Virus record (IMG/VR): IMGVR_UViG_3300023174_004058
Span: 1-41,258 of that record
Length of the DNA stretch: 41,258 bases
Strand: one strand, 5' to 3'
Source of the DNA: a virus
The translations under genes were made by a program, and so were the position numbers. This document shows positions 4,095-41,258 of the stretch, in pieces (positions within the stretch are counted from its first letter, which is position 1; each line of letters opens with the position of its first letter). Below the pieces are notes generated by a model. The model ran no database searches and was not told the DNA's origin. It saw only the letters and a program-made list of their open reading frames with translations.

Positions 4095-4603
4095 TGAAAC
4101 AAAGTGCAATAGACCATGCGGTAATGCTACGACCAGATTTGTATAGCATTAAAAATTTGTTTGAACCAGATGCATTAAGCGAATTGTTAAACAAATTAAA
4201 CGTAGAAACCAATTGGCAACTTCAAGAAAATCAAGAATTCCTTCCTCGACGAACTTTGTCCTGGCTTACTGACGGAGTATTAGACGAAGTATGGTGCATG
4301 CTAAACACACTTGATTTTTCAAGATTTAAATTGAAATTTCTCAATGTCTCTATATGGAAAGACCTTCCAGGGTATTGTATTAGTCCACACACAGATAATG
4401 ACAGAATAAAAGCAGCCATGCAAATATATCTAAACGATTTGCCCAAAGAACTTGGTACGTGGTTTGAAGAAACAGAAATACCATATGGTCAGAATTCTGG
4501 GTATATCATGAACAATCAATATCGGCCAAAACATGGAATGAAACATCCAGTTCCTGATGGGGTTGTTCGATATAGTCTCTATGCAAAATTTGATTATGTA
4601 TAA
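4091..4603 (+). CDS. 2-oxoglutarate/Fe(II)-dependent oxygenase
   Basis: This is a 170-residue protein of the 2OG-Fe(II) dioxygenase (cupin) superfamily, which hydroxylates proteins, nucleic acids or small molecules. The iron ligands appear as H100-T-D102 and H148, and the 2-oxoglutarate-binding arginine as R160 in V-V-R-Y-S-L-Y. An open frame extends back to 4004, but the start is placed at ATG 4091 (or 4094) because it forms an ATGA overlap with the helicase stop. Its end overlaps the next gene by 8 bases, so oxygenase and radical SAM enzyme are probably made together. It is clearly more AT-rich than the helicase. The substrate is unknown. Confidence 0.8.
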   Translation: MMKQSAIDHAVMLRPDLYSIKNLFEPDALSELLNKLNVETNWQLQENQEFLPRRTLSWLTDGVLDEVWCMLNTLDFSRFKLKFLNVSIWKDLPGYCISPHTDNDRIKAAMQIYLNDLPKELGTWFEETEIPYGQNSGYIMNNQYRPKHGMKHPVPDGVVRYSLYAKFDYV

Positions 4604-5594
4604 TATACAAGATATTGTCCACCTACATTTAGAAATTTCCAGCAAATGCAATGCTGAATGCCCGTTGTGTCCACGAAATTTTTACGGATATCCCTACAAT
4701 GATGGATACATTGAGCACAACATGAGTTTATCAGAAGCTCAACATATTTTTCAACCAAAATTTTTAAAACAGTTAACCGAGATAGATATTAATGGCAATT
4801 TTGGTGATTCTGTAATGAATCCCGACACTGTTGAGATCATTAAGTATTTTAGTGAATATTCATCTGCAACAATTTTCATGAGTACTAATGCTGGTGCCAG
4901 AGATAAAGAATACTGGCAAAGTCTAGCACAATTAGATGTGCAGGTAACTTTTTGTATTGATGGTCTTGAGGATACTCATCATCTATACAGAAAAAACACC
5001 CAGTACTCTACGGTGATAAAAAATGCAAAAACTTTTATTGCCGCTGGCGGTCATGCTACATGGAAAATGATCAAGTTTGATCATAATCAACATGAATTTG
5101 AATCAGCTGAAAAATTAAGTCAACAGCTAGGGTTTCAAGCATTTGGAATTGCTGATAATGGACGCAATCAAGCGCCAGTATTTGACAAACAACAAAAATT
5201 AACACACGTGATTGGTCAACCGGTCAATGTGAATTTTGATAGGTTGTGGCGCTCACGCACCACAGATGAAGTTTTATTGGAAGACATTGTACAGCATCGT
5301 AATCCAAAACCAATACAATGTCAAGTAAAAAACGATCGATCGTTGTATGTATGCAGTACTGGGGATGTTTATCCTTGTTGTTTTTTAGGATTTAATCCTA
5401 AGTCCTACGGCCACGGAAACTATCATGCTGCCGCTAATGCACAATTTAAACATATGGTTCAAGAAAACAATGCATTGAAGCACAGCTTAGAACATTGTAT
5501 CAATTGGTTTGATGGTATTGTGCAATCATGGAATCAGCCCACATTTGAACAAGGTAGGCTGGTAATCTGTAATGACAATTGTGGATGTGATTAA
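4596..5594 (+). CDS. Radical SAM enzyme with SPASM/twitch-like C-terminus, copy 1
   Basis: This 332-residue protein has the radical SAM cluster motif C18-x3-C22-x2-C25 at its N-terminus, directly followed by C-P-R-N-F-Y-G-Y-P-Y-N. The C-terminal part carries more cysteines (a lone C, then G-D-V-Y-P-C-C, then a Cys-rich tail C-x4-C-x-C), as in SPASM/twitch domains that hold an auxiliary Fe-S cluster. It is a clear paralogue of the protein at 15087-16043, with the radical SAM cysteines at identical positions. ATG 4596 is preferred because alignment with that paralogue begins there; the frame is open to 4557. Substrate unknown. It overlaps the oxygenase upstream by 8 bases and the convergent fibre gene by 4. 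Confidence 0.85.
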   Translation: MYNIQDIVHLHLEISSKCNAECPLCPRNFYGYPYNDGYIEHNMSLSEAQHIFQPKFLKQLTEIDINGNFGDSVMNPDTVEIIKYFSEYSSATIFMSTNAGARDKEYWQSLAQLDVQVTFCIDGLEDTHHLYRKNTQYSTVIKNAKTFIAAGGHATWKMIKFDHNQHEFESAEKLSQQLGFQAFGIADNGRNQAPVFDKQQKLTHVIGQPVNVNFDRLWRSRTTDEVLLEDIVQHRNPKPIQCQVKNDRSLYVCSTGDVYPCCFLGFNPKSYGHGNYHAAANAQFKHMVQENNALKHSLEHCINWFDGIVQSWNQPTFEQGRLVICNDNCGCD

Positions 5595-32221: not shown

Positions 32222-33739
32222 ATGTTCCTCAGTTATTTTACACTATTAACCGCTCTGTCATTGAGCGTGGTGGCGGCCTGGTACAGTATCCTGGGCCTTA
32301 CTGCTATTTTTGCCAGTGCAGTCATACCCATCATTATCATGGGCAGTATCCTAGAAGTGGCCAAGGTCACTGTCACAGTGTGGTTGCACGAATACTGGCA
32401 TCGTTGCCGACTGCTGATGAGAATATACCTGGTGCCGGCAGTGGGCATGCTCATGGTCATAACATCAATGGGCATATTTGGTTTCTTGAGCAAAGCACAC
32501 AGTGACCAAAGTTTAGTATCAGGTGATGTGCTCAGCAAGATTGCAATATATGATGAAAAAATCAAAACCCAAAAGGACAATATTGAGGCGAACCGCAAGG
32601 CACTTAAACAAATGGATGAGGGCGTGGACTCAGTACTGGGCCGCTCAGCAGATGAAAAAGGTGCCGACAAGGCTGTGGCTCTCAGAAAAGCCCAGCAGAA
32701 AGAGCGTGTTAGACTTCAAAATGAAATATCACAGTCGCAGAAGTCCATTGCGGAACTTAACGATGCCCGTGCGCCTATTGCCGCCGAGGTACGCAAGGTC
32801 GAAGCAGAAGTTGGGCCAATCAAGTATATCGCGGCGTTCATATACGGGGACAACCCGGACTCGAATCTACTAGAACGTGCTGTGCGTTGGGTCATCATCA
32901 TATTGGTTGTGGTGTTTGATCCACTTGCTATCATGATGGTGTTGGCTGCCACAGAGAGTTTAAAGTGGGAACGTGAACGGCGACGCCAACTGGCCTACGA
33001 GCCTGATGATGGTCCACTGACAGATGAGCAAATTGCACAACTGCGTGAGACGGCAGAACCAGAACTGCCCACAGGAGAGGTGGTTGAAACAAGTCGACTG
33101 TTTGATGATCCGCCCAAGGACCCACATCCGCCAGGATGGATGTATGACGAACCACAATCGAGTACACTGACCGAAGAGGAAGTAGAACAAGTCATTGCCG
33201 AGTTTGATCAAGCACGTCACCTTGAACCCGTGGAGTTTGATCAGGATTATGTTAAAGAGCTTGACAAGCCCACGGTTGAATATCAAATCCTTGAAGATGT
33301 TGATGAAGACCTTGACGATGATGATCCATTGAAAGCCGCAATTAAACAATGGAAAGATGAGAATCCCCACAGCACTCTCAAAGAAGAGAGATACAAACTT
33401 GCTCGTGGAAAAATTGACGAACTGCCTTGGATGCGTTTGTTGGCAGACAATGATGACTTGGGCAGAGCACCATTAACAGGATTTGGTATTGCGTTCCCAG
33501 AAACTGCCATCAAAGGCGACACATTCATGCGTGTGGATCGCATGCCAAATGTGCTGTACAAATACAATGGCCAGAACTGGATTATTGTGGACAAAACTTT
33601 AACAGATAACTACACATACGATGATGCATATATTGAGCATTTGATCGCACAACTGTCGTCTGGGGAATACGATCCAGACCTGCTGAGTGATGCAGAAGCT
33701 GATGCCATTGCCCGTCGTGTAAAACCAATTCAAATATGA
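32222..33739 (+). CDS. Large membrane protein with coiled coil and acidic tail, 505 aa
   Basis: Residues 1-90 hold about three hydrophobic helices (e.g. F-A-S-A-V-I-P-I-I-I-M-G-S-I-L-E), then a charged coiled coil (about 100-190, rich in Lys, Glu, Gln), then another helix (W-V-I-I-I-L-V-V-V-F-D-P-L-A-I-M, about 225-242). A long acidic, soluble tail with many Asp/Glu/Pro follows (about 255-505). I recall similar proteins in T4-like marine phages, without known function. The layout suggests an inner-membrane protein with a cytoplasmic scaffold tail. It is separated by four bases from the gene before and shares ATGA with clpX. Confidence 0.75.
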   Translation: MFLSYFTLLTALSLSVVAAWYSILGLTAIFASAVIPIIIMGSILEVAKVTVTVWLHEYWHRCRLLMRIYLVPAVGMLMVITSMGIFGFLSKAHSDQSLVSGDVLSKIAIYDEKIKTQKDNIEANRKALKQMDEGVDSVLGRSADEKGADKAVALRKAQQKERVRLQNEISQSQKSIAELNDARAPIAAEVRKVEAEVGPIKYIAAFIYGDNPDSNLLERAVRWVIIILVVVFDPLAIMMVLAATESLKWERERRRQLAYEPDDGPLTDEQIAQLRETAEPELPTGEVVETSRLFDDPPKDPHPPGWMYDEPQSSTLTEEEVEQVIAEFDQARHLEPVEFDQDYVKELDKPTVEYQILEDVDEDLDDDDPLKAAIKQWKDENPHSTLKEERYKLARGKIDELPWMRLLADNDDLGRAPLTGFGIAFPETAIKGDTFMRVDRMPNVLYKYNGQNWIIVDKTLTDNYTYDDAYIEHLIAQLSSGEYDPDLLSDAEADAIARRVKPIQI

Positions 33740-34944
33740 AATCACCTGACACCCTAGACAACTGTAGTTTTTGCGGCAAACACAAAGACTCGGTGGCCAA
33801 ACTCATAGTAGGCAACGAAGTCTCAATCTGCAACGAGTGTGTGGATCTGTGTCAGACCTTGCTGGTGGAAGAACTGCCAGAGAAATCAAAAGAAATAACA
33901 GATGACACTCTGGATCCCAGAGCCATCAAAGATCATCTAGATCAGTATGTGATTGGTCAAACCCATGCCAAAATGGTATTGAGTGTGGCCATTGCCAATC
34001 ATTACAAACGCATAGCCAATGCTGATGCCAACGTAGAAATTGAAAAAGCCAACATACTCATGCTTGGCCCAACAGGTTCAGGTAAAACGCTGTTGGCACG
34101 TACTGTGGCACGTTACTTGGATGTGCCATTTGTGATTGCAGATGCCACCAGCTTGACCGAAGCAGGTTATGTAGGCGATGATGTAGAAAGCCTGATCACC
34201 AGACTGTACACAGCCGCAGGCAGTGATGTGGCCAAGACACAACGCGGCATTGTGTTCATAGACGAAATTGACAAAATCAGCCGACGTAGCGAGAGTGCCA
34301 GTATCACCCGAGATGTGTCAGGAGAGGGTGTTCAACAGGCCTTGCTGAAATTGGTGGAAGGTACCCGGTGCAGAATCACTCCGCAAGGAGGCCGCAAGCA
34401 CCCATCGGGCGAAACTGTGGAAATTGACACAGCCAATATCTTGTTCATTGCTGGCGGTGCATTTGTGGGCTTGGACAACATTGTCAAAAGCCGCATAAAA
34501 GGTACCAGCATAGGATTCAATGCCAAAGTGGGCAATGACAAGAACGCACACCTGGATCAAACCACACCCGAAGACTTGATCAAGTTTGGTATGATACCTG
34601 AGTTTGTGGGACGTTTCCCCAGCTGGGTTGCCCTGGAAGAACTTACAAAAGCTGACTTGATCAAGATCTTGCAAGAAGTCAAACACAGCTATGTGAGTCA
34701 ATACAAATGGCTGTTTCAGAAAGATCAAGTGGAACTCAAGTTCAGCACCGACAGTCTAGAGTTGATTGCAGAACGCACCATTGCCAACAAAACTGGCGCA
34801 CGTGGTCTACATTCAGAATTGGAACGTGTGCTGTTGCCACATATGTATAACCTGGCTCGTTATCGCAATCACGGAATCCGCACAGTTGATATTGATATCC
34901 AGCAGGTAAATATTCCCAGGGAGCTCAAAGAAATAAATGAATAA
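33736..34944 (+). CDS. clpX: ClpX ATPase, unfoldase and specificity subunit of ClpXP
   Basis: ClpX unfolds tagged proteins and feeds them to the ClpP protease. This 402-residue version is nearly full length (E. coli 424) and looks intact: N-terminal zinc domain (C10, C13, C32, C35), Walker A G-P-T-G-S-G-K-T (111-118), the pore loop G-Y-V-G-D, Walker B V-F-I-D-E-I-D, the R-K-H loop (G-G-R-K-H-P), and sensor-2 G-A-R-G-L. The I259-G-F261 tripeptide that docks ClpX onto ClpP is present, so it could use host ClpP. No clpP gene is in the window. It shares ATGA with the membrane gene and overlaps the bS21 gene by eight bases. Confidence 0.97.
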
Positions 34945-35161
34945 GAAGCATGCTAGATCAGTGTTGGTACAAGACAACAACATAGAAAAAGCTCTTCGCA
35001 AATTCAAGAAAAAAGTGCAAAATAGTGGTGTGCTGAATGATCTCCGTGAACGTGAATTTTACATCAAGCCCACCACAGCTCGTAAACTCAAACGCAGTGC
35101 TGCCAAAAATCGCTGGCGCAAACAGCTTGAGAGTCAACAACTACCTCCCCGAACATATTAA
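34937..35161 (+). CDS. rpsU: Ribosomal protein bS21
   Basis: bS21 sits on the small ribosomal subunit near the anti-Shine-Dalgarno end of 16S rRNA and affects initiation. The family pattern is clear: V-Q-D-N-N-I-E-K-A-L-R-K-F-K-K-K, then G-V-L-N-D-L-R-E-R-E-F-Y-I-K-P-T-T-A-R-K, then a basic tail. E. coli bS21 has R-R-R-E-F-Y-E-K-P-T-T-E-R-K at the same place. The 74-residue length matches. ATG 34937 overlaps the clpX stop, with AGGGAG 13 bases upstream. A phage copy could replace host bS21 and bias ribosomes toward phage messages; that is known as a hypothesis for other phages and is inference here. Confidence 0.93.
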   Translation: MNKKHARSVLVQDNNIEKALRKFKKKVQNSGVLNDLREREFYIKPTTARKLKRSAAKNRWRKQLESQQLPPRTY

Positions 35162-35175
35162 TTTTTTCAAATATT

Positions 35176-35204
35176 TTGACACAAAATGAAATTTGTGTTA
35201 TAAA
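35176..35204 (+). promoter_or_regulatory. Sigma70 promoter (TTGACA, 17 bp, TATAAA) for hsp20, with TATAAATA
   Basis: TTGACA at 35176-35181 and TATAAA at 35199-35204 have a 17-bp spacer (11 of 12 consensus positions). The -10 overlaps TATAAATA (35199-35206), an exact match to the T4 late -10, so the site could serve both early and late transcription. Confidence 0.8.
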
Positions 35205-35210
35205 TATACA

Positions 35211-35234
35211 TGTAGTGCCCATAGTGGGGCTACA
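35211..35234 (+). other. Hairpin at the predicted 5' end of the hsp20 leader
   Basis: TGTAG at 35211 pairs with CTACA ending at 35234, and inner CCC with GGG across a two-base bulge, with loop ATAGT. Transcription from the 35176 promoter should begin at about this position, so the hairpin would cap the message and may protect it. A control role is possible. Confidence 0.45.
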
Positions 35235-35271
35235 ATTCAAAAGTCATCTTGCTTAATAAAGGAGAAAACAA

Positions 35272-35733
35272 ATGACAAAAACTCTCACCCTTCGCACATT
35301 CGATCTTCCCGCAATTCACAAATTTGGTATCGGTTTCGATAACTTGTTTGATGATCTCATGCGTGTGAATGCTCAACAAAGCAACAACAACTATCCACCT
35401 TACAACATTGTGCAAATCAATGATGATGAGTACATGATCAGTTTGGCTGTGGCTGGATTCGGGCATAACAATCTTTCGGTTACTAAAGACAAAAACTTCT
35501 TGATAATTGAAGGCACACACAGTGTAACAAAGCTGGCAGATGAAGATGATGCCAACTACACATATCTACACAAAGGCATCAGCGAAAGAAGTTTCCGCAG
35601 GGAATTTCAATTGGCTGACCATGTGGAAATCGGCAATGCACATCTTGAACTGGGTATCTTGAATGTTCACTTGAAACGTGAAGTTCCAGAAGAAGCCAAA
35701 CCAAAGACCATTGCTATTACCTACAAAGAGTAA
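35272..35733 (+). CDS. Small heat-shock protein (Hsp20/IbpA-like)
   Basis: This 153-residue chaperone of the alpha-crystallin family binds unfolding proteins. The alpha-crystallin domain spans about 40-130: Y-P-P-Y-N-I-V-Q-I-N-D-D-E-Y, then L-A-V-A-G-F-G, then I-S-E-R-S-F-R-R-E-F-Q-L, then L-E-L-G-I-L-N-V-H-L. The F-R-R-E-F-x-L signature is typical of the bacterial IbpA group, and phage copies are common in T4-like marine phages. A strong promoter and GGAGA ribosome-binding site precede it. The C-terminus ends K-T-I-A-I-T, like the I-x-I tail motif of this family. Confidence 0.94.
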   Translation: MTKTLTLRTFDLPAIHKFGIGFDNLFDDLMRVNAQQSNNNYPPYNIVQINDDEYMISLAVAGFGHNNLSVTKDKNFLIIEGTHSVTKLADEDDANYTYLHKGISERSFRREFQLADHVEIGNAHLELGILNVHLKREVPEEAKPKTIAITYKE

Positions 35734-35746
35734 TATAATGTAAATA

Positions 35747-35772
35747 CAGTGACAGCAATCCTGCTGTCACTG
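35747..35772 (+). terminator. 11-bp perfect hairpin between hsp20 and clpS
   Basis: CAGTGACAGCA (35747-35757) pairs perfectly with TGCTGTCACTG (35762-35772) across a four-base loop. There is no T-run after it, so it may be a weak terminator, a processing site or a message-stabilising structure. A late-like TGTAAATA (35739-35746) lies directly before it. Confidence 0.5.
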
Positions 35773-35798
35773 ATTGAGTAACCAAGCAAGGAATAGAA

Positions 35799-36110
35799 AT
35801 GGCACAGAGCGATACACGCACACGAATCAAACCATCAGAGGCCGTACAAGAGCCGCCCATGTTTAAAGTTATCTATCTAAACGATAACCAAACCACAATG
35901 GAATTTGTTGTGGACAGTTTGATTGAATATTTTGATTACACACCAGCCACAGCTGAACAGATTACTGTGGACATTCATCAAGCTGGGCAAGCCACAGTGG
36001 CAGTGTTGCCTTATGAAGTGGCTGAACAAAAAGGCATCGAAGTCACACTCAGCGCAAGATCACAGAGCTTTCCATTACAAATCAAGTTGGAACCTGAAAC
36101 TGTAAATTAA
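35799..36110 (+). CDS. clpS: ClpS adaptor for N-end-rule proteolysis
   Basis: ClpS delivers proteins with N-terminal Leu, Phe, Tyr or Trp to the ClpAP protease. This 103-residue protein matches ClpS (E. coli 106): P-P-M-F-K-V-I-Y-L-N-D-N-Q-T-T-M-E-F-V-V-D-S-L aligns with the E. coli [20 protein letters not shown] segment that binds the N-terminal residue, and V-D-I-H-Q-A-G carries the conserved His. The second Asp of N-D-D is Asn here, which might alter binding. No clpA is present, so host ClpAP would be the partner. It overlaps the convergent phosphoesterase by four bases. Confidence 0.9.
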   Translation: MAQSDTRTRIKPSEAVQEPPMFKVIYLNDNQTTMEFVVDSLIEYFDYTPATAEQITVDIHQAGQATVAVLPYEVAEQKGIEVTLSARSQSFPLQIKLEPETVN

Positions 36111-36895
36111 TTGTCTACCACAATGCGCAAGGGATGATATACATGTTGACGCCATATGGTATCACCCCGACCTCTGCAGTTGTTGACAAAACGCACACCG
36201 TGACGTATTTGATCTACTGATCCATGATAGTGACCAAAACACCAGGTGTGCAATTTCTTTTCTGTGTCTGCGCTCAAGGCCTGCATCATGAAACTGTTGC
36301 CCAGGGTATTGAATCTTAAACTGTCTGCCAATCCAATGTCATGCGCAACCAAACTTGCGCTAGGTACAGTGTGCGTGACACACACAATCTTGTTGACATC
36401 ACGATGAGTTTGCAGACGTTTTACACTGTTGATCATGTAAGTGCTGTCAGTCCGGGCCATGCGTCCCACAGTTTTGGCCACAGTACCATTGACCTTGGCA
36501 TAATCTTGAAACCAAAGCGATGACTGCTCTGCATCAATGCTGGGGTCAAGATCATAAGTCCACCAACCATTTGTGCCCACGATTGCCACCCCATCAACCA
36601 CCGCAACATTGTCCTGCAGGTATACCACATTGGGTATTCTTCTTATTTTTTTAGCAAGGTCTGCATAACTGCTGTTCAAATCGTCAAGATGATATCTGTG
36701 TTCGTCATTGCCGTCTACATAAAACACCGCTTGATAACATTGTCCAAGATGCCGCAAACTATCAACCACGACTGTACGATCACGTGCAACATCACCGGCC
36801 ACAACGCAATAAGGACTGGTGGCCAGGCCTGACCAGTCAAATCCAGGCCAGGTTTCGGTGTGTAAATCAGAAATTAAATCAAACGCAAAACTCAT
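36107..36895 (-). CDS. Calcineurin-like metallophosphoesterase, 262 aa
   Basis: Metal-binding motifs of this superfamily are present in order: S-D10-L-H12, V-A-G-D-V, a modified third motif Y-V-D-G-N-D-E-H, C-V-T-H-T, and G-H-Y-H-G. The third motif differs from the usual G-N-H-D/E because the His falls later (G-N-D-E-H), so activity or metal geometry may vary. The substrate could be a nucleotide, nucleic acid or phospho-ester and cannot be read from sequence. It is convergent with clpS and divergent from the gene at 36920, with just 24 bases between starts. Confidence 0.82.
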   Translation of the reverse strand: MSFAFDLISDLHTETWPGFDWSGLATSPYCVVAGDVARDRTVVVDSLRHLGQCYQAVFYVDGNDEHRYHLDDLNSSYADLAKKIRRIPNVVYLQDNVAVVDGVAIVGTNGWWTYDLDPSIDAEQSSLWFQDYAKVNGTVAKTVGRMARTDSTYMINSVKRLQTHRDVNKIVCVTHTVPSASLVAHDIGLADSLRFNTLGNSFMMQALSADTEKKLHTWCFGHYHGSVDQIRHGVRFVNNCRGRGDTIWRQHVYHPLRIVVDN

Positions 36896-36919: not shown

Positions 36920-37273
36920 ATGAACATTATATTTGGAGACGCATTAGATAAACTGCCAGACAACTATACAGTGTTGGAATTGGACACGTTTATATTACCC
37001 CCGGACAATGCAAAAGTAACTTCGTACTGTGTGATTGACAAGGTTCCGTTGACGGATTTTCCATTGATGGAGGCCTATATCAAAGTTCATACTGACATGA
37101 TGACTGCGTATAGGGAACAAAATTGGGAGTATTGTTTGCATGCCATCAAGGGCCTTGTGGGACGATGGAATGGCGAATTAGATAGTTTTTACAGCAATTT
37201 GCTAGAACGTGTGCAACAACACCAGGCCACACCACCTGGCGACTATTTCACTGGTTACCTGGTCAAACGTTGA
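36920..37273 (+). CDS. Conserved phage hypothetical protein, 117 aa
   Basis: The protein begins M-N-I-I-F-G-D-A-L-D-K-L-P-D-N-Y-T-V-L-E-L-D-T-F, which I recall from a family of unknown proteins in T4-like cyanophages. A helical region rich in Trp, Tyr and Arg follows (H-T-D-M-M-T-A-Y-R-E-Q-N-W-E-Y). An AAAAGGAAAA ribosome-binding site lies before the ATG. Its end overlaps the convergent aminotransferase gene by 19 bases. No function is known. Confidence 0.72.
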   Translation: MNIIFGDALDKLPDNYTVLELDTFILPPDNAKVTSYCVIDKVPLTDFPLMEAYIKVHTDMMTAYREQNWEYCLHAIKGLVGRWNGELDSFYSNLLERVQQHQATPPGDYFTGYLVKR

Positions 37274-38412
37274 AGTCCCGCCTTAAGGCGATCAAAGTAT
37301 TGATCGTCAGCAGTGAGTGGTGCAAACACTTTCACACTGTTGTATCCAGGCAAAGAGGCTGCAAACCCAACGTTGTTGATGTCTGACAAAGAGATCTCTC
37401 TATCAAAGTCATATGTGCGGTAAGTGTTTGCACCGCGTGAATTCAAATCTAGCTCGTCAGCAATGCTTTGCAATCTTTGTTCAATTTCAGGCACCCGCGG
37501 CAACAATGATTGTATTTGTTGAGTAGCACTCAAAGCCGCTGCCACACCAGACATGTTGGGTTGCCAGGTATGACCATGATTCCAACTCTGTATGTTCAAA
37601 GTTTGTCTCACTGTTTCTGTACACACAGCCGCACCCAATGGACTGTATCCGCCCGTTAAAGATTTACCAATGGCACAAATGTCAGGTTGTATGCCATAAG
37701 GCGCATAGCCAAACATGGTGCCATTTGTGCCCCAACAAAACGCCACGTCATCCACAACCATCAGCACATTGTGCTCATCGCAAATCAATCGTAATTGCTG
37801 CCAGAACTTGATGCTGTAAGGAGCCATGGTCACGGCCCAGCTCACGGTTTCTAATATCACACATCCAATGTCAGGGTGGCGTTTTAATTGTTCTTGTATT
37901 TTGTTTAGCGCAAGTTGTTCTTGTCCATGTTGCTGATATGCATATTGCCAATTGGGACTGTTGACCAGCACAGAACGACCCAATCCAGGGTATTCGCCAC
38001 GTAGATGTTTGGCCAGCATAGTGGTGCCATGATAACTCATGGAGAAGCTCAAGATCTTGTCTCGTGATTGACCACGGGCAGCCCAGTAACTGTCGTTCAT
38101 GGCAATGGCTGCTTCCACTGCATCTGATCCACTCACAGCCCAGGTAACTGCTGCCCAGTTGCCTAACTCACAAATTTCTTTGACCAGTGCGTTATTTTGT
38201 TCAGCAGTTTCGCCTGTGTTGCCACGAATGAAGTTGATTTCATTTGATGACACAGCATCAGCAATGGGTTGATTGCCATAGCCCAAGATATAGGCCATGT
38301 TGCCACACTGGATGTCCATGTGTGTTTCACCGTTGGAGTATTCTACCATATACCCGTGAGTACGGGTGACTGTTTTTTCCTGTTCGCCAGGTGACCAATA
38401 TTTTATTTCCAT
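37255..38412 (-). CDS. Class III PLP-dependent aminotransferase, 385 aa
   Basis: The fold of the glutamate-1-semialdehyde/ornithine aminotransferase group is visible: V-S-G-S-D-A-V-E-A-A-I (cofactor phosphate binding), S-Y-H-G-T-T (the family's Y-H-G), V-V-D-D-V-A-F-C-W (Asp contacting the pyridine nitrogen), and A-I-G-K-S-L-T-G-G-Y (the PLP lysine). The length of 385 is somewhat below the usual 420-450. ATG 38412 is chosen; an in-frame TTG at 38427 has no ribosome-binding site either. The substrate cannot be told, but the location beside lipid and glycan genes may matter. Confidence 0.87.
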   Translation of the reverse strand: MEIKYWSPGEQEKTVTRTHGYMVEYSNGETHMDIQCGNMAYILGYGNQPIADAVSSNEINFIRGNTGETAEQNNALVKEICELGNWAAVTWAVSGSDAVEAAIAMNDSYWAARGQSRDKILSFSMSYHGTTMLAKHLRGEYPGLGRSVLVNSPNWQYAYQQHGQEQLALNKIQEQLKRHPDIGCVILETVSWAVTMAPYSIKFWQQLRLICDEHNVLMVVDDVAFCWGTNGTMFGYAPYGIQPDICAIGKSLTGGYSPLGAAVCTETVRQTLNIQSWNHGHTWQPNMSGVAAALSATQQIQSLLPRVPEIEQRLQSIADELDLNSRGANTYRTYDFDREISLSDINNVGFAASLPGYNSVKVFAPLTADDQYFDRLKAGLQRLTR

Positions 38413-38442
38413 GCAGATATATAGCAAGGAAAACTGGGCAGT

Positions 38443-38772: not shown

Positions 38773-38809
38773 TTTTGTAATATTTGAATGTTAAATAACT
38801 ATTACAAAA
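38773..38809. repeat. 10-bp inverted repeat TTTTGTAATA / TATTACAAAA
   Basis: The two perfect arms lie at 38773-38782 and 38800-38809 with a 17-base spacer. They flank the GTTAAATA element in the gap between divergent genes. The same 10-mer TTTTGTAATA also occurs at 28069-28078, in front of a sigma70 promoter. A protein-binding site is more likely than an RNA hairpin given the AT-rich arms and long loop. Confidence 0.4.
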
Positions 38810-38817
38810 GGCTCACA

Positions 38818-39426
38818 ATGAAAGAAATTTTACAAACACTCAAAGAACAACGTTGGGATGATCATCGTTATTATCATCACAGTCGTATCAACCAATTTTT
38901 ACATTTGATATCAGCCACAAGTTTTTTGGTTGCATATGTGTATCTGTTTATTGATCCAGTGGTGAGTGCTTATGTTGCATGGTTGATCGCCATGACCACC
39001 AGACAAGCAGGTCATTTCTTCTTTGAACCGCACGGTTACGATGAATACAACAATGCCACATTTGAATACAAAGAAAAAATCAAAATTGGATTCAACTTAA
39101 AACGCAAACGTGTGTTGATGGCCTGTTTTGTAGCCGTGCCATTGTTGGCCTACTTTGATGCTGAGTTGATGAATGTGTTGATACCTGACAACGATCCAAT
39201 GACATTTGTAAATCGTGTGGGCATGGGCTGGTTATGGCTGGGCGCAGCCGGTGTTGTGTTTAGAATGATTCAACTCACAGCACTACAAAGTAGACGAGTT
39301 GCACTAGTTTGGTGTCTCAAGATTGTGACTGATCCATTCCACGATGTATGGATCTATCGTAAGAGCCCTATATACTTGATGCGTGGTCAACTGATTGATC
39401 CTGACCTGCGTCAAGATTACACATAG
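38818..39426 (+). CDS. Membrane protein with Mpo1/DUF962-like motifs, 202 aa
   Basis: The chain has a His-rich start (R-Y-Y-H-H-S-R-I-N-Q-F-L-H-L-I-S-A) followed by two hydrophobic helices, then R-Q-A-G-H-F-F-F-E-P-H-G-Y, and two further hydrophobic stretches. The H-x3-N-x3-H and Q-x-G-H-x2-x-E pattern recalls the Mpo1/DUF962 family, whose yeast member is an iron-dependent dioxygenase acting on 2-hydroxy fatty acids. The match is by eye. ATG 38818 is chosen over 38788, which lies within the inverted-repeat and late-promoter region. The gene is convergent with the glycosyltransferase and may belong to the same lipid-related set. Confidence 0.65.
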   Translation: MKEILQTLKEQRWDDHRYYHHSRINQFLHLISATSFLVAYVYLFIDPVVSAYVAWLIAMTTRQAGHFFFEPHGYDEYNNATFEYKEKIKIGFNLKRKRVLMACFVAVPLLAYFDAELMNVLIPDNDPMTFVNRVGMGWLWLGAAGVVFRMIQLTALQSRRVALVWCLKIVTDPFHDVWIYRKSPIYLMRGQLIDPDLRQDYT

Positions 39427-40448
39427 CCATCCTCATCAGTCCATTTGCCGTTGGGAGTGAGATTGTCTCGGAATATATGCCAGGCCCTCTCCCAACTCCA
39501 ACGATGACTGCCTTGCTCAACTTTGTCACGTGCCAATGCCAAACATCGATATGTTGCTGTGGCTAGATCATTTTCCATGTAACCTGTGACGCCTTGATCA
39601 ATCACATCCTTAGGACCTTGTACAGGGTATGCCGCAACTGGTGTACCACAGGCCATGGCTTCGATCATGACCAGACCAAATGTTTCCCATTTACTGGGGA
39701 ATACAAACACATCTGCCATGGCATAGTATCGTGCCAGGTCCACGCCAGTCTTGTAACCTGCAAAAACAATGTCAGGATAACGTTGTTCTAGTTCCGCTCG
39801 GTATGGACCATCGCCCACAATGATTTTGTTGGCGCCCGGATATTGCATGTTGCAAAAATCATCCAAGTTCTTTTCTCGACTCACACGACCCACATACAAC
39901 AAAATGGGACCATTGACCACAGTTTCAGTTCTGTGGTCAGGATTGAACACAGTCCTATCTACTCCGCGTGTCCAGGAAATTACATCACCGTCAAAGCCAT
40001 GTTCGTGCAATTCTGTGACCATTGAATCTGTTGTGGTCAACACTTTGCCTGAGTGCTTGTGAAACCAACGCACATAGCGCCAGGTCATGCTTTCAGGAAT
40101 ACCTGCTATTTTTTTTAAACCTTCAGGAAACTTAGTATGGTAAGCAGTATTATACCGACGATTCCGCTGGTCAAGATAAAATCTAGCGTACAAACCAAGA
40201 GGACCCTCCGTGGCGATGTGTATATAATCCGGAGCCACAGCCCTAATCTTCTTCCCAATCTTCCAGGGAATTGAAATTTTAATTTCGCGGTAGCCTGGGC
40301 TACTAACATGTAAGAACTCCAAGGGAGTAATGTATACAACACGATAGCCGTCCAAAACTGCCAGCGCCTCAATGTTCTTGTACGTAGTGACCACACCATT
40401 TATCTGCTCCGGTAAATTGTCAGTTATGATTAAGATAGTTTTTGACAT
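39417..40448 (-). CDS. agt: Family 4-type glycosyltransferase, Agt-like (glycolipid synthesis)
   Basis: The 343-residue protein has a GT-B fold: N-terminal D-N-L-P-E-Q-I-N-G-V-V-T-T-Y and H-I-A-T-E-G-P-L-G-L-Y-A-R, then L-Y-V-G-R-V-S-R-E-K-N at the hinge, and E-T-F-G-L-V-M-I-E-A-M-A-C-G-T-P-V (the donor-binding E-x7-E motif) in the second half. The H-I-A-T-E-G-P and T-A-Y-H-T-K-F-P-E segments match, from memory, the glycosyltransferases next to plcP in proteobacteria, which add sugar to diacylglycerol. Its start lies 33 bases after the plcP-like stop on the same strand, with AAGGAT as ribosome-binding site. The sugar donor cannot be read from sequence. Confidence 0.82.
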   Translation of the reverse strand: MSKTILIITDNLPEQINGVVTTYKNIEALAVLDGYRVVYITPLEFLHVSSPGYREIKISIPWKIGKKIRAVAPDYIHIATEGPLGLYARFYLDQRNRRYNTAYHTKFPEGLKKIAGIPESMTWRYVRWFHKHSGKVLTTTDSMVTELHEHGFDGDVISWTRGVDRTVFNPDHRTETVVNGPILLYVGRVSREKNLDDFCNMQYPGANKIIVGDGPYRAELEQRYPDIVFAGYKTGVDLARYYAMADVFVFPSKWETFGLVMIEAMACGTPVAAYPVQGPKDVIDQGVTGYMENDLATATYRCLALARDKVEQGSHRWSWERAWHIFRDNLTPNGKWTDEDGYV

Positions 40449-40481
40449 GATCCTTCTACCTTGAATGTTTTGAATTTTAAA

Positions 40482-41258
40482 TTATACCGCATGGTCAACA
40501 GTGTCTGTTCGCAGGTCTTCTGGTCCAGAAACTGTAGTTCTATTCTTCCGGCTTGATCTTGCGGGTTCGTTATGTGTACTGCTATCAATATCATCAACCA
40601 CATTGTCGCTCTCCTGTGTCCAAGTTATGATTTCCCACTCACCGTTATGGTGTTCTACCAGGGCTGTGCAACTCTCTACCCAGTCTCCGTCATTCATGTA
40701 GGTGACACCATCTATCTCTTTGATTTCGGCATGATGAATGTGTCCGCAGATAACTCCGTCAAAGCCACGTTTCTTGCAATAGGCAGCAAGATTGTGTTCA
40801 AAGTGGAATATAAAGTCTACTGCTTTTTTGACCCGATGCTTAAGGAACAGGCTAAGGCTAAAGTACCCAAAACCAAAACGATGACGAATCCAATTGATCC
40901 GAGTATTGAGTCCAAGAATGAAATCATATGCTTTGTCTCCTAATATAGCCAACCACGGCGCCAGGCGTGTGATGCCGTCAAACATGTCACCGTGTACCAC
41001 AAGATAATGCCGACCGTCAGCACCTATGTGTTCAGTTTGATTTACCAATTCAATTATGCCAAACCCAATGCCATACTGCATGAAGGGTCTTAGAAACTCG
41101 TCGTGATTACCAGCCACATATACAACCCTAGTACCGCGCTTGCTATGACCCAGCACACGGCGAATAACATTGGTGTGACTTTGTTTCCAGCGCCACTTGT
41201 TTTGTTTGATTTTCCAAGCGTCAATGATATCTCCCACTAGATATAATGTTTCGCAGGT
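40482..41258 (-). CDS. plcP: PlcP-like phospholipase C of the calcineurin/LpxH-like family, 5' part missing
   Basis: The frame runs off the right edge, so the N-terminal metal motif (D-x-H) is not seen. Visible are T-L-Y-L-V-G-D-I-I-D-A-W, V-A-G-N-H-D-E, V-H-G-D-M-F-D, and G-H-I-H-H-A-E with a final N-D-G-D-W-V-E-S-C-T-A-L. These match, from memory, proteobacterial PlcP proteins, often annotated as UDP-2,3-diacylglucosamine diphosphatase. PlcP removes the head group of phospholipids to leave diacylglycerol. It precedes the Agt-like gene, as in bacterial plcP-agt pairs. A true LpxH role in lipid A is the main alternative. The last 45 residues are polar, Ser/Asp/Arg-rich and look phage-specific. 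Confidence 0.83.
   Translation of the reverse strand, partial: TCETLYLVGDIIDAWKIKQNKWRWKQSHTNVIRRVLGHSKRGTRVVYVAGNHDEFLRPFMQYGIGFGIIELVNQTEHIGADGRHYLVVHGDMFDGITRLAPWLAILGDKAYDFILGLNTRINWIRHRFGFGYFSLSLFLKHRVKKAVDFIFHFEHNLAAYCKKRGFDGVICGHIHHAEIKEIDGVTYMNDGDWVESCTALVEHHNGEWEIITWTQESDNVVDDIDSSTHNEPARSSRKNRTTVSGPEDLRTDTVDHAV

Follow-up and report, generated by a model that had tools for sequence, protein, structure and literature searches.

A plcP-agt gene pair in T4-like phages and its probable role in lipid remodelling and phosphorus supply during infection

The plcP-agt pair and its distribution in phages

The DNA analysed here is the IMG/VR record IMGVR_UViG_3300023174_004058, a stretch of 41,258 bp that is called the window below. 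Two minus-strand genes, plcP and agt, occupy its right end. The first (40482..41258) encodes a metallophosphoesterase of the PlcP group. Its open reading frame (ORF) reaches the contig edge without a stop, leaving the C-terminal 258 amino acids in the window and about 32 N-terminal residues beyond it. The visible part contains NDGDWVESCTAL and FDGVICGHIHHAE; the intact gene of a relative (locus L003, 91% identical) is longer by about 32 residues and starts with MQKTYRSIFISDVHLG / MQKTYRSIFISDVHLGTRDC. The second gene, agt (39417..40448), starts 33 bp past the plcP stop. It encodes a 343-residue glycosyltransferase of family GT4, assigned to the Agt/GTcp group from its Pfam matches, tree position, active site and GT-B fold. 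An earlier note on this DNA had placed such a pair on one strand at 39417-41258. The interval is exact, both genes are on the minus strand, and the motifs that it quoted are present, including HIATEGPLGL in Agt. On the evidence given below, we think it probable that the pair is a phage-borne lipid-remodelling operon that supplies phosphorus during infection.

PlcP-Agt systems are known from proteobacteria, namely SAR11 HTCC7211, P. aeruginosa (PA3219-PA3218), S. meliloti and A. tumefaciens. The phage pair shares with them the two families and their order, the genes again being adjacent or overlapping, and its active sites are conserved. Pho-box control is reported for the bacterial systems, and a Pho-box-like repeat precedes the genes in phage relatives. 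The phage pair differs in being carried by T4-like phages, in usually having Glu for the catalytic Asp of Agt, in its linkage to phage pstS and porin genes, and in occasional variants with a GT2 glycosyltransferase or a RimK-type ligase. The P. aeruginosa pair, plcP-agt1, has been shown experimentally to make glycolipids, and PA3219 is an experimentally supported PlcP (PMC8528852).

To judge from its gene content, the window is a fragment of a T4-like phage. It encodes a T4-type primase, a DnaB-like helicase, an exonuclease, ribonucleotide reductase subunits, an ATP-dependent DNA ligase, a tail-spike-like protein and virion structural proteins.

The phosphoesterase has relatives in 568 viral stretches and the glycosyltransferase in 467. 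For each protein the 80 best were kept, and frequencies among them are not population rates. The two genes are adjacent in 111 of the 159 viral loci read, with gaps of -68 to 126 bp and often with an overlap; about 10 contigs were fetched by both searches, and the 111 loci therefore correspond to about 100 distinct contigs. The number of viral relatives, together with this adjacency, argues that the pair is not a chance association. Both genes are under purifying selection, the ratio of nonsynonymous to synonymous substitution rates relative to the window (YN00, where a value was obtained) being 0.07-0.18 for plcP and about 0.11 for agt. On its arrangement, the pair is a phage operon.

The position of the pair at the extreme end of the contig could suggest that bacterial DNA has been misassembled or misbinned into a viral record. 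Against this, relatives occur on hundreds of viral contigs, the phage PlcP and phage Agt proteins form clades of their own, and 12 of the 33 larger plcP contigs tested also carry gp23 or terminase. Moreover, an isolated SAR11 phage, Pelagibacter phage Mosig EXVC030M, encodes a PlcP homologue with 46% identity (QOI69083.1, 'putative UDP-2,3-diacylglucosamine hydrolase'), in a gene divergent from a pstS-like gene ('putative phosphate ABC transporter'). On these observations we reject contamination, and consider misassembly or misbinning extremely improbable. Mosig differs from the window in having no agt beside plcP and in the branch of the tree that its PlcP occupies; in the announcement of its genome there is no word of lipids or phosphate. 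Among cellular PlcPs, the nearest to that of the window come from alphaproteobacteria (Hyphomonadaceae and relatives) and have no more than 62% identity, which is not a host assignment.

Family placement and active sites of PlcP and Agt

The window PlcP matches Metallophos (PF00149) with 30.6 bits, the cut-off being 21.5. In the alignment it has the motifs GD-x2-D, GNHD, HGD-x2-D, GHIHHA and GDWVE, which include calcineurin-type metal-site motifs and the GNHD/GDWVE signature. A further motif, SDxHL, which comes first in the protein, is cut off by the contig edge; L003 has it intact. Identity to the P. aeruginosa PlcP is 57%. A search of the PDB gave no close solved relative of PlcP, and an AlphaFold model was poor (mean predicted local distance difference test score, pLDDT, of 53) and was set aside.

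A tree was constructed with P. aeruginosa PA3219 (locus L163), a S. meliloti protein and two LpxH proteins as references, together with 29 PlcP-like proteins from named genomes and five from plasmid records. The S. meliloti protein is encoded beside sinR/sinI-type genes, and we take it to be the studied PlcP. The window protein and all the phage proteins group with PA3219 and the S. meliloti protein, and LpxH is split from them with 100% support in the Shimodaira-Hasegawa-like approximate likelihood ratio test (SH-aLRT) and a branch length of 5. Most of the phage PlcPs form one clade (support 97), with those of Mosig, L159 and L153 placed elsewhere, which suggests either that PlcP has entered phages more than once or that it has been exchanged. 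The tree was a quick search with SH-aLRT support only and contains some long rows; the LpxH split is strong and the finer order is not.

The distinction from LpxH (UDP-2,3-diacylglucosamine hydrolase) is of importance, since the two share a calcineurin-like domain, metal motifs and the name given by annotation pipelines. A different reading of the pair would be that it modifies lipopolysaccharide (LPS), with an LpxH-like phosphoesterase acting on lipid A and a glycosyltransferase acting on the LPS core or O-antigen. Pipelines do name PlcP proteins 'UDP-2,3-diacylglucosamine diphosphatase', tables of viral auxiliary metabolic genes (AMGs) list lpxH (PMC9611531, PMC10653327), and the phage PlcP matches the NCBIfam LpxH models weakly, with 25.9 and 29.6 bits. 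However, the curated cut-offs of these models are 190 and 134 bits, LpxH is a distant outgroup in the tree, and the GNRD of E. coli LpxH is replaced by GNHD in 50/50 phage PlcP representatives, which also all have GDWVE. The LpxH/LPS reading is ruled out by the tree, motif and profile score together, and we consider an LPS function very unlikely. The same evidence identifies the window phosphoesterase as PlcP, in agreement with the earlier note. As in the PlcP group generally, the phage enzyme would be Mn-dependent and would release diacylglycerol from phosphatidylethanolamine and phosphatidylglycerol.

The glycosyltransferase matches Glycos_transf_1 and Glyco_trans_1_4 with 89-91 bits (cut-offs 26-27). 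Its closest named bacterial relatives are about 43% identical; they include P. aeruginosa Agt1 and a Sphingomonas protein encoded immediately after its plcP. In a tree of the glycosyltransferases, all 36 phage Agts form a single clade (100% SH-aLRT) that is nested in the Agt group. Outside that group, on long branches, are an Acinetobacter glycosyltransferase and E. coli WaaG, WaaB, WcaI and WcaC, which argues further against an LPS function. An AlphaFold model of moderate quality (mean pLDDT 67), used for the fold only, matches GT-B enzymes of family GT4, the highest template modelling score among the 50 matches listed being 0.72, to the phosphatidylinositol mannosyltransferase PimA. The window protein therefore belongs to the Agt clade, as the earlier note had suggested, and is a predicted, not proven, diacylglycerol glycosyltransferase.

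The SAR11 enzyme GTcp has been mutated at many positions (PMC8231724), and these provide a guide to the active site. The equivalents of GTcp G16, G82, G85, H104, R190, K195, T257, F258, G259, E264 and W320 are identical in 42/42 phage Agt representatives. The window Agt keeps all the listed essential residues of GTcp other than D256, and R163 is among those kept. The diacylglycerol-contacting residues T162 and R163 appear in it as WTRGVD, and a W-T-R/K-G motif is found in 40/42 phage Agts (WTRGVD in 38, WTRGID in one and WTKGVD in one; two were unmatched by the pattern). As a member of the group, the enzyme would transfer glucose, glucuronic acid or galactose from a uridine diphosphate (UDP) sugar to diacylglycerol.

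Phosphorus genes, a promoter repeat and the proposed function

A frequent neighbour of phage plcP is pstS (32 ORFs), a representative of which scores 405 bits against a cut-off of 339 (NF008171). Porin genes also occur nearby, with ten ORFs for phosphate-selective porin O/P (PF07396) and 12 for Porin_4. Among the 33 plcP contigs, 16 carry pstS; on these contigs, of 40-320 kb, it is within about 5 kb of plcP in 15 of the 16 and about 11 kb away in the other. On the 212 kb contig IMGVR_UViG_3300023184_004198, which has a close relative of the window helicase, pstS is about 2 kb from plcP.

The 100 bp before phage plcP frequently contain a direct repeat with an 11-bp period, TGTMA-N6-TGTMA, which resembles two Pho-box half sites and is commonly followed by TAAATA about 11 bp further on and then by ATG. 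In a first scan, the classical E. coli consensus CTGTCAT-N4-CTGTCAT was modestly enriched before plcP. The TGTMA form was derived from the positionally shared hits of that scan, and was then tested on shuffles, random windows and other genes. It is present in 40/105 unique plcP upstream regions, in each case 38-55 bp before the ATG, compared with 0.17% of dinucleotide shuffles, 14/467 upstream regions of other same-strand genes and 0/95 agt upstream regions. If one mismatch is allowed, it occurs in 64/105 plcP upstream regions, compared with 2.0% of 100-bp windows taken at random; its positions peak at -38 and -49, a spacing of one repeat unit. The pattern was read off the promoters of these same, related phages, and the enrichment before plcP is therefore partly by construction. 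Better and independent support comes from pstS, since the repeat is also found before 16/23 pstS genes.

Pho boxes have been described at bacterial plcP clusters (PMC4796936; PMC8528852), and pstS and other cyanophage genes are under host PhoBR control (PMC10976474). By analogy with cyanophage pstS, host PhoB probably turns on phage plcP-agt under phosphate limitation. The phage repeat, TGTMA with an 11-bp period, differs from the cyanobacterial Pho-box consensus. As a separate observation, a Pho-box-like TGTCATAAAACTGTCA in L127 precedes, by about 41 bp, a gene with no assigned function (4568-5233).

Phage DNA synthesis needs much phosphorus, and aquatic hosts are often phosphorus-starved. 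We propose that in a phosphorus-starved Gram-negative host PhoB would bind the repeat and induce the operon when phosphate is scarce. PlcP would then remove the phosphorylated head groups of phosphatidylethanolamine and phosphatidylglycerol to leave diacylglycerol, and Agt (or its GT2 counterpart, discussed below) would add a hexose from a UDP-sugar to give a glycolipid, keeping the bilayer intact. The phosphate freed in this way would enter the pool for phage nucleotides. The phospholipid-to-glycolipid remodelling put forward in the earlier note is largely supported by the comparative data, the enzymatic outcome being what we infer. Placement of the two proteins in trees, which the note had named as able to refute its reading, did not do so. 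A wider proposal is that a module of PstS, phosphate porins and PlcP with Agt or GT2, under the control of PhoB, is carried by many large T4-like phages; it would break down the phospholipids of the host while the cell is alive and put glycolipids in their place, the membrane acting as a phosphate store for phage DNA. We consider the chances of this to be about even.

The same enzymes could serve a different purpose, in which a glycolipid envelope blocks superinfecting phages or resists membrane-active compounds and the release of phosphate is incidental. An aminolipid mutant of Ruegeria shows about 4-fold lower phage adsorption (PMC9938194), glycolipids protect against polymyxin (PMC8528852), and pstS is missing at some plcP loci. 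On the other hand, plcP is co-located with pstS and phosphate porins and shares a Pho-box-like promoter with pstS, and in the course of a lytic infection the lipids may be exchanged too slowly for the surface to be protected. Such an envelope function thus appears rather unlikely, although it is the strongest of the alternatives. The earlier note had left the choice between these purposes open; the pstS, OprO/P-type porin and Pho-box-like repeats of the relatives favour phosphate supply over a superinfection block.

Several observations weigh against phosphorus supply by this pair. Of 11 contigs that encode a protein closely related to the window helicase, two carry plcP, which is therefore an accessory gene; pstS is found in three of these 11 contigs, most of which lack plcP. 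No pstS is seen on about half of the plcP contigs, though all of them may be fragments, and none was recognised in the window. The promoter of the window plcP is off the contig, and in the closest relatives, L002 and L003, the repeat has one mismatch (CGTAACAAAACTGTAAT). Finally, the position of the catalytic Asp256 of GTcp is occupied by Glu in 34/42 phage Agts, including that of the window, in which the motif FPSxTDTFG reads FPSKWETFG, and D256E in GTcp removed more than 90% of activity (PMC8231724). This substitution is the chief doubt over the exact reaction. The eight phage Agts that have Asp are placed close to the base of the phage clade, and Asp is present in 20/20 cellular Agts examined; Glu therefore appears to be derived within the phages.

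It could therefore be that phage PlcP is a phospholipase as proposed, but that its partner enzyme has drifted towards a different acceptor or donor. Besides the Glu, this would be consistent with the 29 viral loci in which a GT2 glycosyltransferase replaces agt directly after plcP (for example L022:6811-7530). However, the remaining catalytic and diacylglycerol-contact residues tested are retained, Glu is usual here among other GT4 enzymes, MshA being one that has it naturally (PMC8231724), and in bacteria, too, plcP is found with a variety of lipid genes (PMC4796936). On balance we regard such drift as unlikely. The bacterial plcP loci fetched showed no relative of the phage GT2; the GT2 is possibly an alternative diacylglycerol glycosyltransferase. 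In five phage loci (L131:5111-6004, L097, L105, L136 and L151) a RimK-type ATP-grasp ligase is encoded between plcP and agt.

Lipid remodelling for phosphorus supply would be related to the auxiliary genes of cyanophages such as pstS, in that both concern phosphorus acquisition, with Pho-box-like promoters and likely control by host PhoB. The difference is that plcP-agt would recycle the phosphorus of membrane phospholipids rather than increase phosphate uptake, as phages are already known to do with pstS. Auxiliary metabolism of this kind would be new, the enzymes themselves being known from bacteria. No published phage plcP-agt was found in open-access PubMed Central (preprints and most subscription journals being outside this scope), and in a survey of phosphorus-acquisition genes of terrestrial phages, plcP and lipids are absent from the main text (PMC10987575). 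If our interpretation is correct, infection would alter the lipid composition of cells in lakes and seas. It also offers a possible reason for the appearance of lpxH in viral gene surveys, where some of the entries may be misnamed plcP, given that annotated PlcP proteins carry that name.

Other genes and elements in the window and its relatives

Convergent with agt, and overlapping its 3' end by 10 bp, is a gene for an Mpo1-like membrane protein (38788..39426, plus strand), with a PF06127 match of 20.7 bits that is under the 24-bit cut-off. A homologue is present in 17/159 viral loci, and an Mpo1-like gene also occurs near P. aeruginosa plcP-agt. The neighbour may possibly be a lipid-metabolism partner of the pair. 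In 17 phage loci (L095, L096, L097, L118, L127 and others) a gene for a DesA-family fatty acid desaturase lies near plcP, possibly for further remodelling of membrane lipids.

Further from the pair, the window encodes a class-III aminotransferase (37255-38427, minus strand; PF00202, 158.6 bits), and a similar gene is found downstream of plcP-agt in several relatives. A second metallophosphoesterase (36107-36895, minus strand) matches phrog_1649 with 87 bits and is not a PlcP. Genes for ClpX (above its curated cut-off), an Hsp20/IbpA-like protein and ClpS follow one another at 33736-36110 on the plus strand, and are possibly a phage set for proteolysis and chaperone function. Short ORFs resembling translation initiation factor IF-1, recognised by eye, are present upstream of plcP in L021, L024 and L079.

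The viral loci also contain an RNA-like element of about 48 nt with two hairpins, consensus AAAYCGRYCRCAACGATAGAGYGRYG-CTGGAACTCGTAACCAGY, which is absent from the window. There are 58 unique copies in viral loci L002-L160, among them L028:1254, L033:4044, L119:5058, L006:5135 and L160:8081. Many begin no more than 10 nt from the stop of the upstream ORF, and a terminator-like hairpin comes after many of them; the element stands immediately before plcP in about a dozen loci. A search of Rfam gave no match at the element in six loci (E<=1), the sole hit listed for these loci being elsewhere and far under the gathering score. Covariation is strong, with 52 cells changed on both sides compared with 16 in shuffles, and includes a loop-loop pair that varies between A-U and G-C. 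A scan with an exact pattern located a subset form of the element in 55 viral stretches.

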